Source: Halosolutus amylolyticus (lineage in GTDB: Archaea; Halobacteriota; Halobacteria; Halobacteriales; Natrialbaceae). From it: a DNA stretch of 64,000 nt. Position numbers and translations under genes: made by a program. Below the pieces are notes generated by a model, which was not told the origin of the DNA, did no database searches, and saw only the letters and a list, made by a program, of their open reading frames with translations. The stretch covers positions 620,001-684,000 of the forward strand of contig NZ_JALIQP010000002.1 in assembly GCF_023566055.1 (NCBI RefSeq). The letters run 5' to 3'. Positions 48,720 to 55,542 of this stretch are shown here, piece by piece. Each line of letters starts with the position of its first letter. Within the stretch, counting starts at the first letter, position 1.

Positions 48720-49793
48720 TCACCACCGGAATCCGCGCGCCTCAGCCGGCGGTTCGAGCGGACTCGCCGGCAACTCGGCCGCGAGGTCGGGATCGTTGTA
48801 GATGCCGGGGGCGACGTCGTTCGGCCCGTCGGGGTAGCACAGCGACGCGAGCAACTGGACGTGGCCGCGGCCGACGCCGAGTTCGAACTGGCCGCCGCCG
48901 TACAGCCGGATCCCGCGCTCGTCGCAGTAGCGAATCGTCTCGAACAGCGACTCGATCGAGCCGAACCGCGACGGTTTGACGTTCAGCCAGTCGGGCTCCC
49001 ACGGGAGCGCTTCGACGTCCGCGACGCCGTGGATCGGCGCGTCCCACGAGACGCGGGACCGGACGTCGGGGTCGTCGAACAGGGGTTCGGTCTCGTCGGT
49101 CAGTGCGGGGTCCTCGATCACGGCGTCCGGGAACGCCTCGAGGACGAGCGAATACAGGTCGGGATCCGCGGGCACGTCCACGTCGGTGCCCTCGTACTGG
49201 CCTTTGAGATCGAGGATCCGGACGGCATCCCGGCCGACGGATTCGTCGATCCCGTCGACGAGGGCCGCGTCCCACTCCGGGGTCGGATCGAGTTTGAACT
49301 CGATGTCGGGCACCCGATCGCGCAGGTCGGCGAGCCGATCGGTCGTCGGCGGATCGCCGAGTCGCGTGCTGGCCACGAACCGGACCGAGTCGCGCGATCG
49401 ATCGAGGGCGCTCGCGAGGTCCGTCCCGGCCTGTCGCAGGGCGAGATCCAGCGCGGCGCTCTCGATCCCCCAGCGCCGGTAGTTCCGGAAGACGTTCCGA
49501 CCGGGAGCGCCCCCGAGAAACAGGTCGCGCTCCGCGAGCGCGTCCGAGAACGAGTCGATCGTGTACTCGCCGGTCAGGTCGGGGAGGCCGCTATCGGCCA
49601 GCGCGTCGTGGTCGTCCGTCTCGTACGTGACGTCTTCGCCGATCCCGACGACCGACTCCCCGTCGGGGCCGGGACCTGACAGCGAGATTTCGGTTGTCAC
49701 GCGCGTGAAGTCGCTCGAGGTGTCGCGCTCGAGGCGATCGGTCGAGACGGAATCGATCGTCACCGGGAGATCGGCGAGTCGGTCGTACTCCAT
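48720..49793 (-). CDS. Enolase-superfamily protein
   Basis: A 357-residue protein starting MEYDRL. The C-terminal barrel has FKLDPTPEW, LDLKGQY, AVIEDPAL, WDAPIHG and LNVKPSRFGSI, the places of the metal and lysine residues of mandelate-racemase/muconate-cycloisomerase enzymes. The usual K-x-K motif reads FKLD, so catalytic class is uncertain. Divergent from the sulfite-oxidase-like gene. Confidence 0.75.
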   Translation of the reverse strand: MEYDRLADLPVTIDSVSTDRLERDTSSDFTRVTTEISLSGPGPDGESVVGIGEDVTYETDDHDALADSGLPDLTGEYTIDSFSDALAERDLFLGGAPGRNVFRNYRRWGIESAALDLALRQAGTDLASALDRSRDSVRFVASTRLGDPPTTDRLADLRDRVPDIEFKLDPTPEWDAALVDGIDESVGRDAVRILDLKGQYEGTDVDVPADPDLYSLVLEAFPDAVIEDPALTDETEPLFDDPDVRSRVSWDAPIHGVADVEALPWEPDWLNVKPSRFGSIESLFETIRYCDERGIRLYGGGQFELGVGRGHVQLLASLCYPDGPNDVAPGIYNDPDLAAELPASPLEPPAEARGFRW

Positions 49794-49883
49794 GGACGAC
49801 ACCTCGGACGCCAGCGAAAAGAACATTGGAGTCGACGAACGTGAGGACCAGTTATTTCGTCGTGGCTGTGGGCCGTGTTAGAC

Positions 49884-51149
49884 ATGGCCACAGAAAGTCC
49901 ACGGGAGGGGCGTCACGAGGAGATCGAGGCGATCGTCGACCGAAAGGCGGGCGGCGTCTCGGAGACGCGGGACGAGGCCGACAAGTACACTGTCGTTGGG
50001 GCCGCCGATCGGCGCACGTACGCGAACTGGTTGACGCCGATCGAGGAACACTTCGTCTGCCACCGGAACGACATCCCGGACGCCGACGCGGACGACTGGA
50101 CCGTCGCGCTCACCGGGCACGTCGAGGGTGATCTTCCGCTGAGCGAGATCGAGGAGTCGTACCCGACGGTGGCGGTCGCGCACACGATGGAGTGTGCCGG
50201 CAACGGTCGCGGCCAGCACCGACCCGAGACGGGGAGCGTCCAGTGGGGGTTCGAAGCGGCCGCCACGGCCTTCTGGACCGGCACCCCGGTCAGTTCGATC
50301 CTCCGCGAGCACGGCGTGGACTCGGCGGACGGGCGGTGGCTCACCGCGATCGGCGGCGATCCGGCGGACGGCGACGACGTGTTCGCGCGATCGATCCCGC
50401 TCTCGAAGGCGCTCGACGACTGCATCCTGGCCTACGAGATGAACGGCGAGGCGCTGCCGCGCGAGCACGGCTATCCGGTCCGCCTGATCGTTCCCGGCTG
50501 GTACGGCGTGAACAACGTGAAGTGGGTCGAAGAACTCCGGATCATGGACTCGATGGTGGTCCAGGGGTCGCTCGATCGCGACGGCGAACACGCCTACTGG
50601 CAACAGACCGCCTACCGAATGCATCCCGAAGGGGTCGAACCAGAGACGAACGAGACCGTCGAGACGGCCGACACGTGGGACCAGCTCGAGGGCGCGGTCG
50701 AGCACCCCTACACGTTCGACGCGACCGTGATGTCGGTGATCGGGACGCCGTCCGGGGAGGAACCGGTTCCGGTGGGCGCGGACGAACCGATCGAGGTTCG
50801 CGGAGTCGCCTGGGCGGGCGACGAGGGGGTCGATCGCGTCGAGGTGTCGACCGACGGCGGCGACACCTGGGTCGACGCGGACCTGTTCGGTCCCGAGTAC
50901 GCCGGCGCGTGGCGGCTGTTCCGGTACGACTGGGACGCCGACCCGGGCGAGTACCGGATGTACTCCCGCGCGACCGACGACCGGGGGCGGCGACAGCCGG
51001 CAACTATCTCCGGGCCGGACGACTGGCGCGACGCCCTCGATGACGAGGCGTTCCCCTGGAACGAGGGCGGGTACGCCGCGAACGCGTACGAGCCGAACGG
51101 CGTGGACGTCGCGGTCCGCGAGACGGACGAATCATCGTCTGCGGAGTAG
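49884..51149 (+). CDS. Sulfite-oxidase-family molybdenum enzyme
   Basis: About 421 residues from the ATG at 49884. The molybdopterin domain has HTMECAGNGRG with ligand Cys104, GWYGVNNVKW and RMHPEG. The C-terminal part (about 285-390) is the Mo-cofactor oxidoreductase dimerisation domain (GVAWAGDEGVDRVEVSTDGG). No signal peptide or heme domain is seen, so it is probably cytoplasmic. A TATA-like GTTATTT sits 27-33 bases upstream of the start. Two MoeA genes nearby could serve its cofactor. Confidence 0.85.
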   Translation: MATESPREGRHEEIEAIVDRKAGGVSETRDEADKYTVVGAADRRTYANWLTPIEEHFVCHRNDIPDADADDWTVALTGHVEGDLPLSEIEESYPTVAVAHTMECAGNGRGQHRPETGSVQWGFEAAATAFWTGTPVSSILREHGVDSADGRWLTAIGGDPADGDDVFARSIPLSKALDDCILAYEMNGEALPREHGYPVRLIVPGWYGVNNVKWVEELRIMDSMVVQGSLDRDGEHAYWQQTAYRMHPEGVEPETNETVETADTWDQLEGAVEHPYTFDATVMSVIGTPSGEEPVPVGADEPIEVRGVAWAGDEGVDRVEVSTDGGDTWVDADLFGPEYAGAWRLFRYDWDADPGEYRMYSRATDDRGRRQPATISGPDDWRDALDDEAFPWNEGGYAANAYEPNGVDVAVRETDESSSAE

Positions 51150-51162
51150 CGGCCCGCCGGCG

Positions 51163-52869
51163 TTACTCGTTTCCGCGACGCTGACGGAGGTTCTGCCGCG
51201 TGAACTGCGGCTTCGCGCCGATCGACTTCGCTCCGCGGAACGATCGGTACAGCAGGAGGACGACGAGCGCGGAGAAGACGGCCGCGACGATCGACGCCTC
51301 CGGGGCCTCGAGCGCGTAGAGGACGCCCATCGAGAACAGCGACATCGTCAGCAGCATGCCGTAGATCAGTCGCCTGGCGAGGGTCTCGAAGACGCCCTTC
51401 GAGTCCTCGACGCCGATACGGACGTAGAGGTCGTCGCGATCGAGTCGATCGAGCGTGCGCTCGGTCTTCGGCGCGATCCGGGTCAGGGACTCGCCCGATC
51501 GGCGGAGTTGTTCGCCCGAGTTCTCGATGTACTGGCGGATGGACTCCTCGCGGTAGCCCTGCTCGGTCAGGTAGTCCGTCGCGGTCGCGATGAAGTCGAA
51601 GTTCGAGTCCAGGGTGACACAGACCCCCTCGACGACGGTCGCGACCCGCAGGACGAGCGCGAGATTCTTCGGCAGGCGGAAGGGAAACTCGTAGATCGAG
51701 TCCTCGATCTGGCCGACGATCTGCTGGACGCGGTACTGTTCGATGTCCTGGCCGCGGGCGTCGGCGATCGCCAGTTCCATCACCTCCGCCATCACGCCCC
51801 GATCGGCCTCCGGACTCAGGGTACCGATCTCGATCAGCGCGTCGAGGATGGCGTCGATGTCCTGGTTGGCGACGGCGATGTAGAAGTCGACGATCTTCTC
51901 CTGGACGAACTCGTCGACCCGGCCGGACATCCCGAAGTCGTAGAAGATGATCCGGCCCTCGTCGGTCACCGCGAGATTGCCCGGGTGCGGGTCGGCGTGG
52001 AAGACCCCGTCGTCGATGATCATCTGGAGGTACGATCGCTGGAGGTTCTCCGCGACTTCGGTGCGGTCGATCCCCTTGCGATCGAGTTCCGCGACGTCGT
52101 TGATCTTCGTTCCCCCAACGTACTCCATCGTGAGCACGCGCGGGCCCGAGTGACTCTCGATCACCCGCGGAATGACGAACCGATCGTCGTCGTCGAAATT
52201 CGCCCGAATCTCGGTGAGCATCGTCGCCTCGCGCTCGTAGTCCATCTCCTCGCGGATCGTCTTGGCGAACTCGTCGGCGAGGTTTTCGAGCGAGAAGGCC
52301 CGCGAGTCGTCGACGAAGTACATCAGGATCGGGAGCGACCAGCGGACGACTCGCAGGTCGGCCTCCACCAGGTCCTCGATGCCGGGGCGGCGGACTTTGA
52401 CGGCGACGTCGTGGACCACCTCCTGTTCCGGTCCGTTCTCTCGGACTTCGGCCTGCCCGTCGATTCGGGCCCGGTACACCTGACCGAGACTCGCGCCGCT
52501 GATCGCGTCGGTGTCGAACTCGACGAACCGCTCCTCGACGGGACCGAGTTCGTCCTCGAGCACCCGCTTTGCGCCGGCCCACTCCGCGGGCGGCACTTCG
52601 TCCTGAAGTGCCGAAAGCACCTCGATGTACTCCGGCGGGAGCACGTCAGGGCGGGTCGACAGCAACTGACCGAGTTTGATGAACGTCGGGCCGAGGGTCA
52701 GCAGCGACTCGAGCAACACCTCGGCACGGTGGCGGTGGGTCGCAGAATCGACCCGCCGTCGCCGACCGAACAGCAGGAACCGCCGCCGATCGCGCGCATA
52801 TGCGAGCAACAGCGGGAGGAAGTGCCAGGCGACGATGACGAAGCGCTTGTAGGCGCGAAGCTGAGCCAG
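51163..52869 (-). CDS. ABC1/UbiB-family kinase-like protein, probable CTG start
   Basis: About 568 residues if read from CTG at 52869. Motifs are the KxGQ segment (FIKLGQLLSTRPDVLP), ASLGQVYRA, the kinase VKVRRPG, ADPHPGNL and YDFGMSG, all typical of ABC1/ADCK/UbiB proteins. Two C-terminal membrane helices follow. No ATG, GTG or TTG lies in frame upstream of the TTG at 52809, but the residues before it (QLRAYKRFVIVAWHFLPLLL) match the usual N-terminus of the family, and CTG at 52869 has an ideal Shine-Dalgarno sequence. These proteins support lipid-quinone metabolism. Confidence 0.85.
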   Translation of the reverse strand: MAQLRAYKRFVIVAWHFLPLLLAYARDRRRFLLFGRRRRVDSATHRHRAEVLLESLLTLGPTFIKLGQLLSTRPDVLPPEYIEVLSALQDEVPPAEWAGAKRVLEDELGPVEERFVEFDTDAISGASLGQVYRARIDGQAEVRENGPEQEVVHDVAVKVRRPGIEDLVEADLRVVRWSLPILMYFVDDSRAFSLENLADEFAKTIREEMDYEREATMLTEIRANFDDDDRFVIPRVIESHSGPRVLTMEYVGGTKINDVAELDRKGIDRTEVAENLQRSYLQMIIDDGVFHADPHPGNLAVTDEGRIIFYDFGMSGRVDEFVQEKIVDFYIAVANQDIDAILDALIEIGTLSPEADRGVMAEVMELAIADARGQDIEQYRVQQIVGQIEDSIYEFPFRLPKNLALVLRVATVVEGVCVTLDSNFDFIATATDYLTEQGYREESIRQYIENSGEQLRRSGESLTRIAPKTERTLDRLDRDDLYVRIGVEDSKGVFETLARRLIYGMLLTMSLFSMGVLYALEAPEASIVAAVFSALVVLLLYRSFRGAKSIGAKPQFTRQNLRQRRGNE

Positions 52870-52882
52870 TCTCGGTCACCTC
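52867..52882 (-). promoter_or_regulatory. Shine-Dalgarno sequence deciding a CTG start
   Basis: On the minus strand, GAGGTGA (complementary to the 16S rRNA tail) is followed after six bases by CTG at 52869-52867, in frame with the ABC1/UbiB gene. A stop codon lies in frame just upstream of the CTG, so no earlier start is possible. Confidence 0.65.
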
Positions 52883-52885
52883 GGA

Positions 52886-53248
52886 TTAGACGTCACCGTC
52901 GACGACGTCGATCGTCGTTTCGTCGACGCCCGATCGCTTCGGGAGCGTCAGTTCGAGGACGCCCCGTTCGACCACCGCTTCGGACTCCGACTCCGCCGCG
53001 TCGTCGGGCAGTGGTACCTCGAGGTCGAGAAAGAGCGATCGGTTCTCCTCGACGTAGTCGTAGTCGTCGGCGAGGTCTTTCTCCCGGCGAGCCTCGATCG
53101 AGATGCGGCCCTCCTCGATCGAGAGGTCGAGCGAGTCGGCGGAGGCCCCGGGCACGTCCAGCACGAGCAAGTAGGCCTCCTCGCTTTCGAGGAGATCGAA
53201 GAAGACGTCTTCCGAGAGATCCCGCAACGCATCGCGGAGCGCTGACAT
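52886..53248 (-). CDS. Hsp20/alpha-crystallin small heat-shock protein
   Basis: A 120-residue protein starting MSALRD. The alpha-crystallin domain is seen as LLVLDVPGASADSLDLSIEEGRISIEA, a loop, then RGVLELTLPKRSG, with the short C-terminal extension typical of archaeal Hsp20. It binds unfolded proteins to prevent aggregation. It is 16 bases upstream of the kinase-like gene, so they may be co-transcribed. Confidence 0.85.
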   Translation of the reverse strand: MSALRDALRDLSEDVFFDLLESEEAYLLVLDVPGASADSLDLSIEEGRISIEARREKDLADDYDYVEENRSLFLDLEVPLPDDAAESESEAVVERGVLELTLPKRSGVDETTIDVVDGDV

Positions 53249-53329
53249 GACCGTCAATTGGGTCGCCGATACGAAAAAGGCCGCGGTCGCGGCGGTTCGG
53301 ACGCGGCCGTTCGCGCGGGCACGAAGCCG

Positions 53330-54151
53330 TCAGAGCACCCAGGCGATCGCGAGGCCGATCACGGCGACGGCGGCCACGACGGCCCCGCCGCCACGGAGTC
53401 CGGCCCGAAGTCCCAGCCGGCGTTCGGTGCTGTCGGAGACGACGAACGGGTAGCCGAACAGCCGATGGCGCAATCGGATCCAGCGACTGTCGGAGAGGAC
53501 ACGCTCGTCGATTCCGACGGCGGCGTTCACCTCGCCCGATCGGCGGGAGACGGTCGTGTCGTACCGCGCCGTGCCGAGGACGAGGATCTCCTCGCCGGGT
53601 TCGAGGACGCGCTCTCGAAACCGCCGATCGGTCCCGGTGCGGAGTTCGAACAGGCGCAGGTCCAGCCGCCGGTTCTGGCTGTCGACGTCCTCGGTCCGGT
53701 CGATGAACGCCCGGATCGGCTCCGGCGGTGCCCGCCCGCCGTCGACGTCGATCCGGGCGTGTTCCTCGAGTCGGAAGTCCGCTCCCGGCGGTTCGATCAG
53801 GACGCTACCCGATCCGTCGTCGAGTCGGAACGGGACGTACCGCTCGCCGGAGGCGATCGTCGTCCACGACCGCCCGTGCTTCGAGTCGCGGGCCTCCTCG
53901 ACGACGTACTCGGAGGCGAGACAGGAGGTGTCGGTGAACGGCGATCGGACGCGGCCGCCGGCCGGCTTCGCGGTCCCCCGGAGCTGAATCGGGCCGCCGT
54001 CCGGCGCGTCGAGCACCGCGTCCGGGCGCGATCGGAGCACGTGCGACGCGAGTCGGAGTTCGCGGACCCCGTACACCAGCGCGAGGAGGGTGCCCGCGGC
54101 GACGACCACGAGACCGACGAGCGCGACGGGACTGGGCGACGGCGCGACCAT
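53330..54151 (-). CDS. GIDE-like two-helix membrane protein
   Basis: A 273-residue protein with one N-terminal and one C-terminal membrane helix flanking a soluble domain containing RSPFTDTSCLASEYVVEE, resembling the GIDE/MULAN-type domain that in eukaryotes precedes a RING finger. No RING is present, so the name refers only to the fold. The role in archaea is unknown. Confidence 0.65.
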   Translation of the reverse strand: MVAPSPSPVALVGLVVVAAGTLLALVYGVRELRLASHVLRSRPDAVLDAPDGGPIQLRGTAKPAGGRVRSPFTDTSCLASEYVVEEARDSKHGRSWTTIASGERYVPFRLDDGSGSVLIEPPGADFRLEEHARIDVDGGRAPPEPIRAFIDRTEDVDSQNRRLDLRLFELRTGTDRRFRERVLEPGEEILVLGTARYDTTVSRRSGEVNAAVGIDERVLSDSRWIRLRHRLFGYPFVVSDSTERRLGLRAGLRGGGAVVAAVAVIGLAIAWVL

Positions 54152-54261
54152 ACCCTCACTCTCCCGGACGGTACGGTAAGTGTGTCGACACGTCGACGGC
54201 CGCGGCTGCAGACCGCGACGGTCCCCGTACGCTTTTGGCTCCCGGCGACCCGATTCAGGGT

Positions 54262-55542
54262 ATGGAAGGTGCCGATCGGGAGCGCACGGAGGCCGGGTTC
54301 AAAGTACGGACTCCCGTCGACGAGGCGCGGCGGATACTCAGGGACGCCGTCGTCCCCGACGGTGATAGCGAGGGCCCGCGGACGGGAACCGAGACCGTCG
54401 AGATCGAGCGCGCCGACGGGCGGACCCTCGCCCAGTCGATCACCGCCGCGCGGAACGTGCCCCACTACGAGCGGGCGGCGATGGACGGCTACGCGGTCCG
54501 GGCGAGCGACACCTTCGGCGCGAGCGATCGATCGCCGGAGGTTCTCCGGATCGCGGACGGGATCGGTCAGGATGCCGCCGTCGCGCCCGGAACGGCGGCG
54601 CGGGTCCACACCGGGAGCGCGCTCCCCGAGGGAGCCGACGCCGTCGTGATGATCGAACACGTCGACGAGTTCGACGCGATGGGTGAACTCGAGGTCGCGG
54701 ACGCCGTCGCGGAGGGCGAGAACGTCGCCCCGGTCGGGGAAGACGTCGAGGAGGGAGCGGTGCTGTACGAACCGGGACACCGGCTTCGGCCCTCCGATCT
54801 CGGCCTGCTCCGATCGGCGGGCTACGCGCGGGTCGACGTCGCGCAGCGGCCGACCGTCGGCGTGGTGCCGACGGGCGAGGAACTCGTCGCGGCCGATCCC
54901 GACCCGGGCGAGGTGATCGAGACGAACGGCCTCACCGTCTCCAGGCTGGCCGAGCGCTGGGGGGCGCGGGCGACCTACCGCGACGTGGTCACCGACGACC
55001 CCGAGTCGCTCCGGGTCGCCATCCAGCGCGACCTGACGAAAGACGTCGTCGTCACGACCGGCGGCTCCTCCGTCGGCGAGCGCGACCTCATTCCGGAGGT
55101 GATCGACGACCTGGGGGAGGTGATCGTCCACGGCGTCGGTCTCAAACCCGGCCACCCCGTCTGTCTGGGCGTCGTCGAGGACACGCCGGTCCTCGCGCTC
55201 CCGGGCTACCCCGTCGCCTGTATCGTCAACGCCGTCCAGTTCCTCCGGCCGACCCTGCGCTGGCTCGAGGGGACGACACCCGATCCACACCCGCGCGTGC
55301 AGGCGGAACTCGATCGCAAGATCCCGAGCGAGCCAGGGACCCGGACGTTCGCACGAGTCCGCCTGGAGGAACGGGACGCCGACGAGGGCCCCGAGTTCAG
55401 GGCGATCCCGACACGAGCGAGCGGCTCCGGCGTCCTCTCGAGCGTCGCCCTGGCCGACGGCTGGGTCGTCGTCGACGACGATCGGGAGGGCATCCCGGCC
55501 GGCGAGACGGTCGCCGTCGAGAACTGGGAAGTGAATCCGTAG
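54262..55542 (+). CDS. moeA: MoeA molybdopterin molybdotransferase
   Basis: A 426-residue MoeA with MDGYAVRA, the nucleotide-binding PTGEEL, GGSSVGERD and the LPGYPVA motif, in the canonical order of the four domains. It inserts molybdate (or tungstate) into adenylated molybdopterin to form the cofactor. A second MoeA lies at 58424. Start at the ATG 54262. Confidence 0.9.
   Translation: MEGADRERTEAGFKVRTPVDEARRILRDAVVPDGDSEGPRTGTETVEIERADGRTLAQSITAARNVPHYERAAMDGYAVRASDTFGASDRSPEVLRIADGIGQDAAVAPGTAARVHTGSALPEGADAVVMIEHVDEFDAMGELEVADAVAEGENVAPVGEDVEEGAVLYEPGHRLRPSDLGLLRSAGYARVDVAQRPTVGVVPTGEELVAADPDPGEVIETNGLTVSRLAERWGARATYRDVVTDDPESLRVAIQRDLTKDVVVTTGGSSVGERDLIPEVIDDLGEVIVHGVGLKPGHPVCLGVVEDTPVLALPGYPVACIVNAVQFLRPTLRWLEGTTPDPHPRVQAELDRKIPSEPGTRTFARVRLEERDADEGPEFRAIPTRASGSGVLSSVALADGWVVVDDDREGIPAGETVAVENWEVNP

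Follow-up and report, generated by a model that had tools for sequence, protein, structure and literature searches.

A conserved, probable CTG start codon in an ABC1/UbiB-family gene of Natrialbaceae

The infC gene of bacteria begins with a non-standard AUU codon that is kept by selection, and it is autoregulated by IF3. The start of the ABC1/UbiB-family gene described here (below, the kinase gene) likewise seems to be non-standard and kept by selection; however, it is another codon in another domain of life, and the autoregulation of infC has no shown parallel in it.

The start codons named in the accessible text of an archaeal review are AUG, GUG and UUG (PMC7531240). In the available sections of Belinky et al. 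(2017; PMC5622118), prokaryotic CUG starts turn up sporadically, by switches from AUG (2 of 61,358 ancestral AUG starts), and the Shine-Dalgarno region is more strongly conserved before the weak starts GUG and UUG. What these cases share with the kinase gene is CUG as a start codon. However, in those sections CUG was too rare for the Shine-Dalgarno analysis, whereas in the kinase gene it appears to be kept through nearly the whole archaeal family. The one haloarchaeal CTG-start precedent found in the open-licence literature is leuA2 (HVO_1510), for orthologues of which an in-frame CTG or a slipped ATG start was proposed in 2021 (PMC8305020, in the text available). There too, a conserved N-terminal region lacks a conventional start in several haloarchaeal species, and CTG was suggested. 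However, according to the same text the leuA2 start region is irregular between species, slippage is not excluded and Hfx. volcanii has GTG, whereas in the kinase gene, which is a different gene, the motif, the spacing and the CTG are uniform. No report of the CTG start of the kinase gene was found in the open-licence literature, a scope outside which most subscription papers fall. The word CTG is absent from the available texts of PMC6728339 and PMC3986360 and from that of a paper on manual curation of haloarchaeal genomes (PMC4500146). CUG starts are known but rare, and judging from the comparisons below the kinase gene is a new, unusually well-conserved case.

The second kind of related system is termination-reinitiation. 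In Hfx. volcanii, Shine-Dalgarno motifs are enriched before distal operon genes, where the accessible text proposes that they serve re-initiation, not recruitment of free subunits (PMC3986360). The sequence GGAGGUGA in the same source contains UGA (Kramer et al. 2014, PMC3986360, available text). The available text of Huber et al. (2019; PMC6728339) reports strict coupling for 13 of the 14 overlapping pairs tested, nine of the 14 coming from Hfx. volcanii; the contribution of the Shine-Dalgarno motif to coupling varied widely, and its mutation raised re-initiation in one of seven cases.

The locus was analysed in a window, that is, the whole stretch of DNA under study (64,000 nt). The features considered, with the evidence for each in brackets, are as follows.

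52886-53248, minus strand: Hsp20-family gene directly upstream, from ATG 53248 to the stop codon TAA 52888-52886, 16 nt before the CTG (PF00011)
52876-52882, minus strand: Shine-Dalgarno motif GAGGTGA, containing the in-frame TGA 52878-52876 (conserved GGTG(A); 16S pairing)
52870-52875, minus strand: six-base spacer CCGAGA from the motif to the CTG (GGTG-to-column distance constant in 102 of 102 genes without another start)
52867-52869, minus strand: probable CTG start codon of the ABC1/UbiB-family gene (column conservation as CTG; ATG, GTG or TTG in other-family orthologues)
52810-52866, minus strand: codons 2 to 20, the conserved N-terminus, which would be lost with the first residue under a TTG start (codon-position entropy; predicted helix)
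52807-52809, minus strand: TTG, first of the conventional starts, read most likely as ordinary leucine (the column drifts among leucine codons; background pairing)
51163-52869, minus strand: ABC1/UbiB atypical-kinase gene, 568 codons from the CTG plus the stop (PF03109 and TIGR01982 matches)

At the junction the minus strand reads GACGTC TAA TCC GAGGTGA CCGAGA CTG GCT CAG CTT CGC GCC TAC. As the preliminary description had it, the CTG at 52869 stands exactly six bases after GAGGTGA, a stop lies in frame just before the N-terminal extension, and the extension contains no ATG, GTG or TTG. The stop is TGA 52878-52876, two codons upstream of the CTG and inside the ribosome-binding motif, so that no start farther upstream is usable without read-through or a frameshift. 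The stop-to-stop frame of the kinase occupies 51163-52875 (570 codons). Its first conventional start is TTG 52809, exactly 20 codons past the CTG; it had been called the only one, which does not hold, as GTG and TTG also occur in this frame at codons 51 and 52.

The motif and the CTG by themselves are weak evidence. The pattern GRGGTGANNNNNNCTG occurs once in the window against 0.26 occurrences expected, and at least once in 21 of 100 shuffles; genome-wide there are 11 occurrences against 9 for the reversed control pattern. This is near chance frequency and thus the case rests on conservation, which raises it above chance. Of the 11 genome sites with the exact geometry, the kinase site alone leads into a long frame (501 codons in the piece retrieved), the next-longest having 150 codons.

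A protein search found the kinase gene in 124 of 125 Natrialbaceae genomes, the exception being a genome that is 53% complete, and the 5' regions were compared in all 124. The start column contains CTG in 118 genomes, GTG in three, TTG in two and CCG in one. In 102 of the 118 CTG genomes there is no ATG, GTG or TTG between the preceding in-frame stop and the CTG, and in 96 of these 102 the stop is two codons upstream of the CTG. The genome counts describe related species, not independent events, and therefore other leucine columns with the same species history were used as a control. When all 124 genes are aligned, leucine occupies at least 90% of the rows in 43 columns. The start column is the sole one in which none of the leucine codons (0 of 120) is CTC, CTT, CTA or TTA; in each of the remaining 42 columns these four account for 10% or more of leucine codons (median 69%). 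Since all 43 columns share one species tree, relatedness does not explain the difference, and the pattern argues that the column is kept as a CTG start and not merely as leucine. An earlier codon test on the 102 genes, in which 1 of 34 leucine columns had a single codon and 3 non-leucine single-codon columns were seen among 181 invariant ones, was partly circular, as the genes had been picked for CTG at the column; it is superseded by the test on 124 genes. On public contigs of named species, which overlap with the Natrialbaceae genomes and are not independent of them, the column is CTG in 65 of 80 loci, 39 of the 65 having no upstream alternative within eight codons. The Natrialbaceae loci without CTG have TTG (L187 and L039, the 5' region of L039 being common to one more locus), GTG (L205, L208, L083) or CCG followed by GTG (L042).

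The ribosome-binding motif is conserved at a fixed place. The distance from GGTG to the start column is identical in all 102 genes without another start. Among all 124 genes, taken without selection, GGTGA is found at the place in 101, GGTG at the exact place in 108, and GGTG there or one base nearer in 123. GGTGA is present in 94 of 94 distinct sequences, partly by selection, since the in-frame stop was the criterion for including the sequences. In three members of the genus the 16S gene ends in ...GGCTGGATCACCTCC. The sole match to the pattern GGATCACCTCCT was rejected as 16S, its surroundings not being 16S-like, and the 16S 3' end was taken from RNA-family matches. Pairing energies were computed against the 11-base 16S 3' end from the genome. 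The GAGGTGA of the window gives -14.9 kcal/mol, and the median before the CTG is -14.0 kcal/mol (102 genes), against -4.4 kcal/mol in a control 120 nt upstream (102 genes). Where the column holds ATG, GTG or TTG, the median is -7.8 kcal/mol (21 genes, five of them from Natrialbaceae). A stronger motif ahead of a weaker start is in line with what the available part of PMC5622118 reports as compensation in GUG and UUG genes. A special RNA structure element at the junction was considered and dropped: there is no Rfam match in 52600-53400, and the local RNA fold is unremarkable (z -0.94).

The same column was compared in 51 genomes of other families, drawn from the best-scoring matches listed and not a random sample. 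It contains CTG in 24, GTG in 11, ATG in four and TTG in one, so that a conventional start occupies the column in 16 of 51; the comparison with orthologues that had been proposed as a check thus finds ATG at exactly this position. The other 11 genomes have TCG (3), TAG (3), TCA (2), TCT, CGG or CCG at the column, and GTG one codon later in all of them. In the other-family CTG genomes the CTG seems not to be the only choice of start, because GTG is also available upstream (23 of 24) or one codon later (three of these 23 and the 24th). In Natrialbaceae, an upstream in-frame GTG is found three codons before the CTG in nine genomes, two codons before it in five and at both places in one. Altogether, an in-frame GTG precedes the column by three codons in 38 of the 175 genes from the 124 and 51 genomes. 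In these 38 the column is CTG in 33, TTG in two, GTG in two and CCG in one, with no CTC, CTT, CTA or TTA, and in all 33 CTG genes the pairing with 16S is stronger before the CTG than before the upstream GTG, although the bases scored for the CTG include that GTG. The junction of Haloferax volcanii, GTG-GTC-ACG-CTG, has both codons. These genes are likely CTG starters too, with less certainty. On a tree of the 175 rows built with the start region left out, CTG versus other requires 10 changes, their direction not being inferred and four rows with CTG plus GTG one codon later being scored as other.

The 20 codons that follow the CTG show the constraint expected of the conserved N-terminus that the preliminary description had placed upstream of TTG 52809. 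In 94 distinct sequences, the mean entropy of codons 2-21 at codon positions 1, 2 and 3 is 0.37, 0.20 and 0.92 bits, whereas for the upstream bases -42 to -13 it is 1.65, 1.40 and 1.43 bits. By this measure the codons between CTG and TTG evolve as translated protein. The TTG column drifts: in the 102 genes it contains TTG in 75, CTG in eight, CTC in eight, CTA in four, TTA in two, and TTC, ATG, GTG, TTT and CTT in one each. Judging from this column, TTG 52809 is most likely an ordinary leucine codon.

Two alternatives involve this TTG. The first is that the CTG form is accompanied by a shorter second form of the protein, started at TTG 52809 or made on an internal transcript that lacks a leader. 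In its favour, TTG is common at the column, and the available text of PMC3986360 describes leaderless transcripts as typical of Hfx. volcanii; however, the codon is not kept as a start, a quarter of the genes (25 of 102) having neither ATG, GTG nor TTG there, and we consider a second form improbable. The other is that translation starts at TTG 52809 alone and the 20 codons upstream are untranslated. This would agree with TTG being the first conventional start and with its presence in three quarters of the genes. It is at odds with the strong constraint at the amino acid level on the codons ahead of it and with the 27 genes that lack TTG at the column, 23 of which have another leucine codon. 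Moreover, 17 of the 102 genes have no ATG, GTG or TTG within the first 30 codons, including one from the same genus, G001, in which the first conventional start is at codon 51, and G015, in which it is at codon 103. The median pairing energy before the TTG, -4.5 kcal/mol (75 genes), is about background. Finally, a structure model from 26 sequences (mean pLDDT 70.4) predicts a helix spanning residues 2-28, which a start at the TTG would cut; this is minor support for the CTG. Taken together, this evidence makes a sole start at the TTG very improbable.

A frameshift is less plausible still. It would have translation begin ten bases ahead of the CTG, at the GTG that GGTGA contains out of frame, and then shift by +1. 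This GTG is present in all 96 genes of the main class, a class selected for a stop that shares two bases with it, and in some relatives a GTG lies in frame three codons ahead of the column. However, the GGTGA motif already accounts for the GTG, species differ in the spacer, and the lack of CTC, CTT, CTA and TTA at the column would be left without a reason. In six of the 96 genes the GTG frame meets a stop at its third codon, before the CTG, and on this ground we reject the frameshift, leaving it only the slightest probability.

The gene upstream is a member of the Hsp20 family (PF00011, E 2.4e-12 with a query started one codon after the ATG). An Hsp20 C-terminus upstream of the kinase gene was recognized by its motif in 168 of 175 loci, and the translations of six of the seven misses seem to contain a like C-terminus, with no clear one in L166. 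The gap between the Hsp20 stop and the start column is 2 to 18 nt in 166 of the 168 loci and 97 nt in two. Among the 98 loci of the 102-gene class in which the motif recognized Hsp20, it is 16 nt in 47, 15 nt in seven, 14 nt in two and 6 nt in 42.

In these last 42 relatives the UGA within the Shine-Dalgarno motif is itself the Hsp20 stop, and Hsp20 and the kinase stand in one frame with a single UGA between them. Such an arrangement would allow read-through of the UGA to yield an Hsp20-kinase fusion. However, the gap is 16 or 14 nt in 49 of the 98, the window included, so that Hsp20 is in another frame and the two cannot be joined; in seven more (15 nt) the Hsp20 stop is in the kinase frame but upstream of the motif UGA. 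Read-through also gives no reason for the constancy of the CTG. It is rejected in the window, where Hsp20 ends in a frame different from that of the kinase, and as a general explanation its probability is as slight as that of the frameshift. A sequencing or assembly error hiding an ATG, for which nothing was found in favour and which had been named as a possible refutation, is excluded by the same CTG in 118 of 124 Natrialbaceae genomes.

The ABC1/UbiB-family gene thus very probably starts at CTG 52869, as was first proposed from the sequence of the window; codon-level conservation, the constant distance to GGTG and the starts of orthologues all support this. We regard four points as established at the level of sequence comparison: where the start lies, that it is conserved as CTG, that a Shine-Dalgarno motif is conserved with it, and that the junction with Hsp20 is tight.

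The junction resembles the termination-reinitiation pairs of Hfx. volcanii, as described in the available texts, in having closely spaced operon genes and a Shine-Dalgarno motif at the end of the upstream gene. A close stop and start with such a motif at the upstream 3' end, a trait of these pairs, is found at the Hsp20-kinase junction. A stop/start overlap (ATGA or TGATG) is absent from it, with 16 nt from TAA to CTG in the window: in the accessible text of Huber et al. the stop and start of coupled pairs overlap, whereas 6 to 16 nt separate Hsp20 from the kinase. On the reading that we favour, ribosomes finishing Hsp20 would be held at the junction through base pairing between GRGGUGA and the 16S 3' end, and would resume translation at the CUG six bases on. 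The CUG would be read by initiator Met-tRNA, and the protein would then begin with Met. The start codon being weak, the kinase would stay scarce, its synthesis tied to the translation of Hsp20. We regard the re-initiation step alone, in which ribosomes arriving from Hsp20 restart on the CUG, as somewhat more likely than not. A stronger proposal is that the CUG is kept on purpose, being usable only by ribosomes just released upstream, in haloarchaea whose Shine-Dalgarno motifs are proposed not to attract free ribosomes. It would then act as a lock making the kinase strictly dependent on Hsp20 translation, and similar hidden CUG starts might exist on other second genes of haloarchaeal operons. 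This we put forward as speculative and rather doubtful.

The locus would be a clear archaeal example of a CTG start with deep conservation. It would also offer a natural system for testing if start codons unsuited to new initiation are tolerated in termination-reinitiation. Since the start is unusual but conserved, gene-finding software will probably place the beginning of the protein too far downstream. A gene finder limited to ATG, GTG and TTG would shorten the kinase by 20 residues, and in 17 of 102 relatives it would shorten the protein by 32 to 102 residues. When the window was compared with the surroundings of the gene in five genomes, a conserved extension ahead of the first conventional start was seen in 10 of 34 codon-like frames. 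Judging from coordinates, several of the nine frames other than the kinase overlap or oppose other frames, and another consists of the Hsp20 frame plus its upstream region; all that follows from the screen is that the kinase gene is among the hits.

The kinase gene matches PF03109 with E 3e-69 (233.3 bits against a cut-off of 22.9). The match to TIGR01982, the UbiB equivalog, has E 2.4e-98; however, its score of 329.6 bits is under the NCBI cut-off of 487.55, and for this reason the gene is classified as a relative of UbiB and apparently not a UbiB equivalog. Residues 65-68 are KLGQ, which we take to be the KxGQ motif of ABC1/UbiB kinases; K65, G67 and Q68 do not vary among 26 aligned sequences. 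A second ABC1-family gene, 43% identical, is present in the genome of the window (L002) and in a member of the genus (L005), the latter with an ATG near the N-terminus.

The Hsp20-kinase pair is flanked on the opposite strand by genes for a molybdopterin-binding oxidoreductase (PF00174) and a MoeA-like protein (49875-51149 and 54235-55542, plus strand). Upstream of Hsp20 lies a gene (53330-54151, minus strand) with a match at E 1.1e-11 to GIDE, a Pfam family whose description is E3 ubiquitin ligase. The 368-codon frame at 48720-49826 (minus strand) has no Pfam match at E 0.001 and is matched in all five relatives compared.
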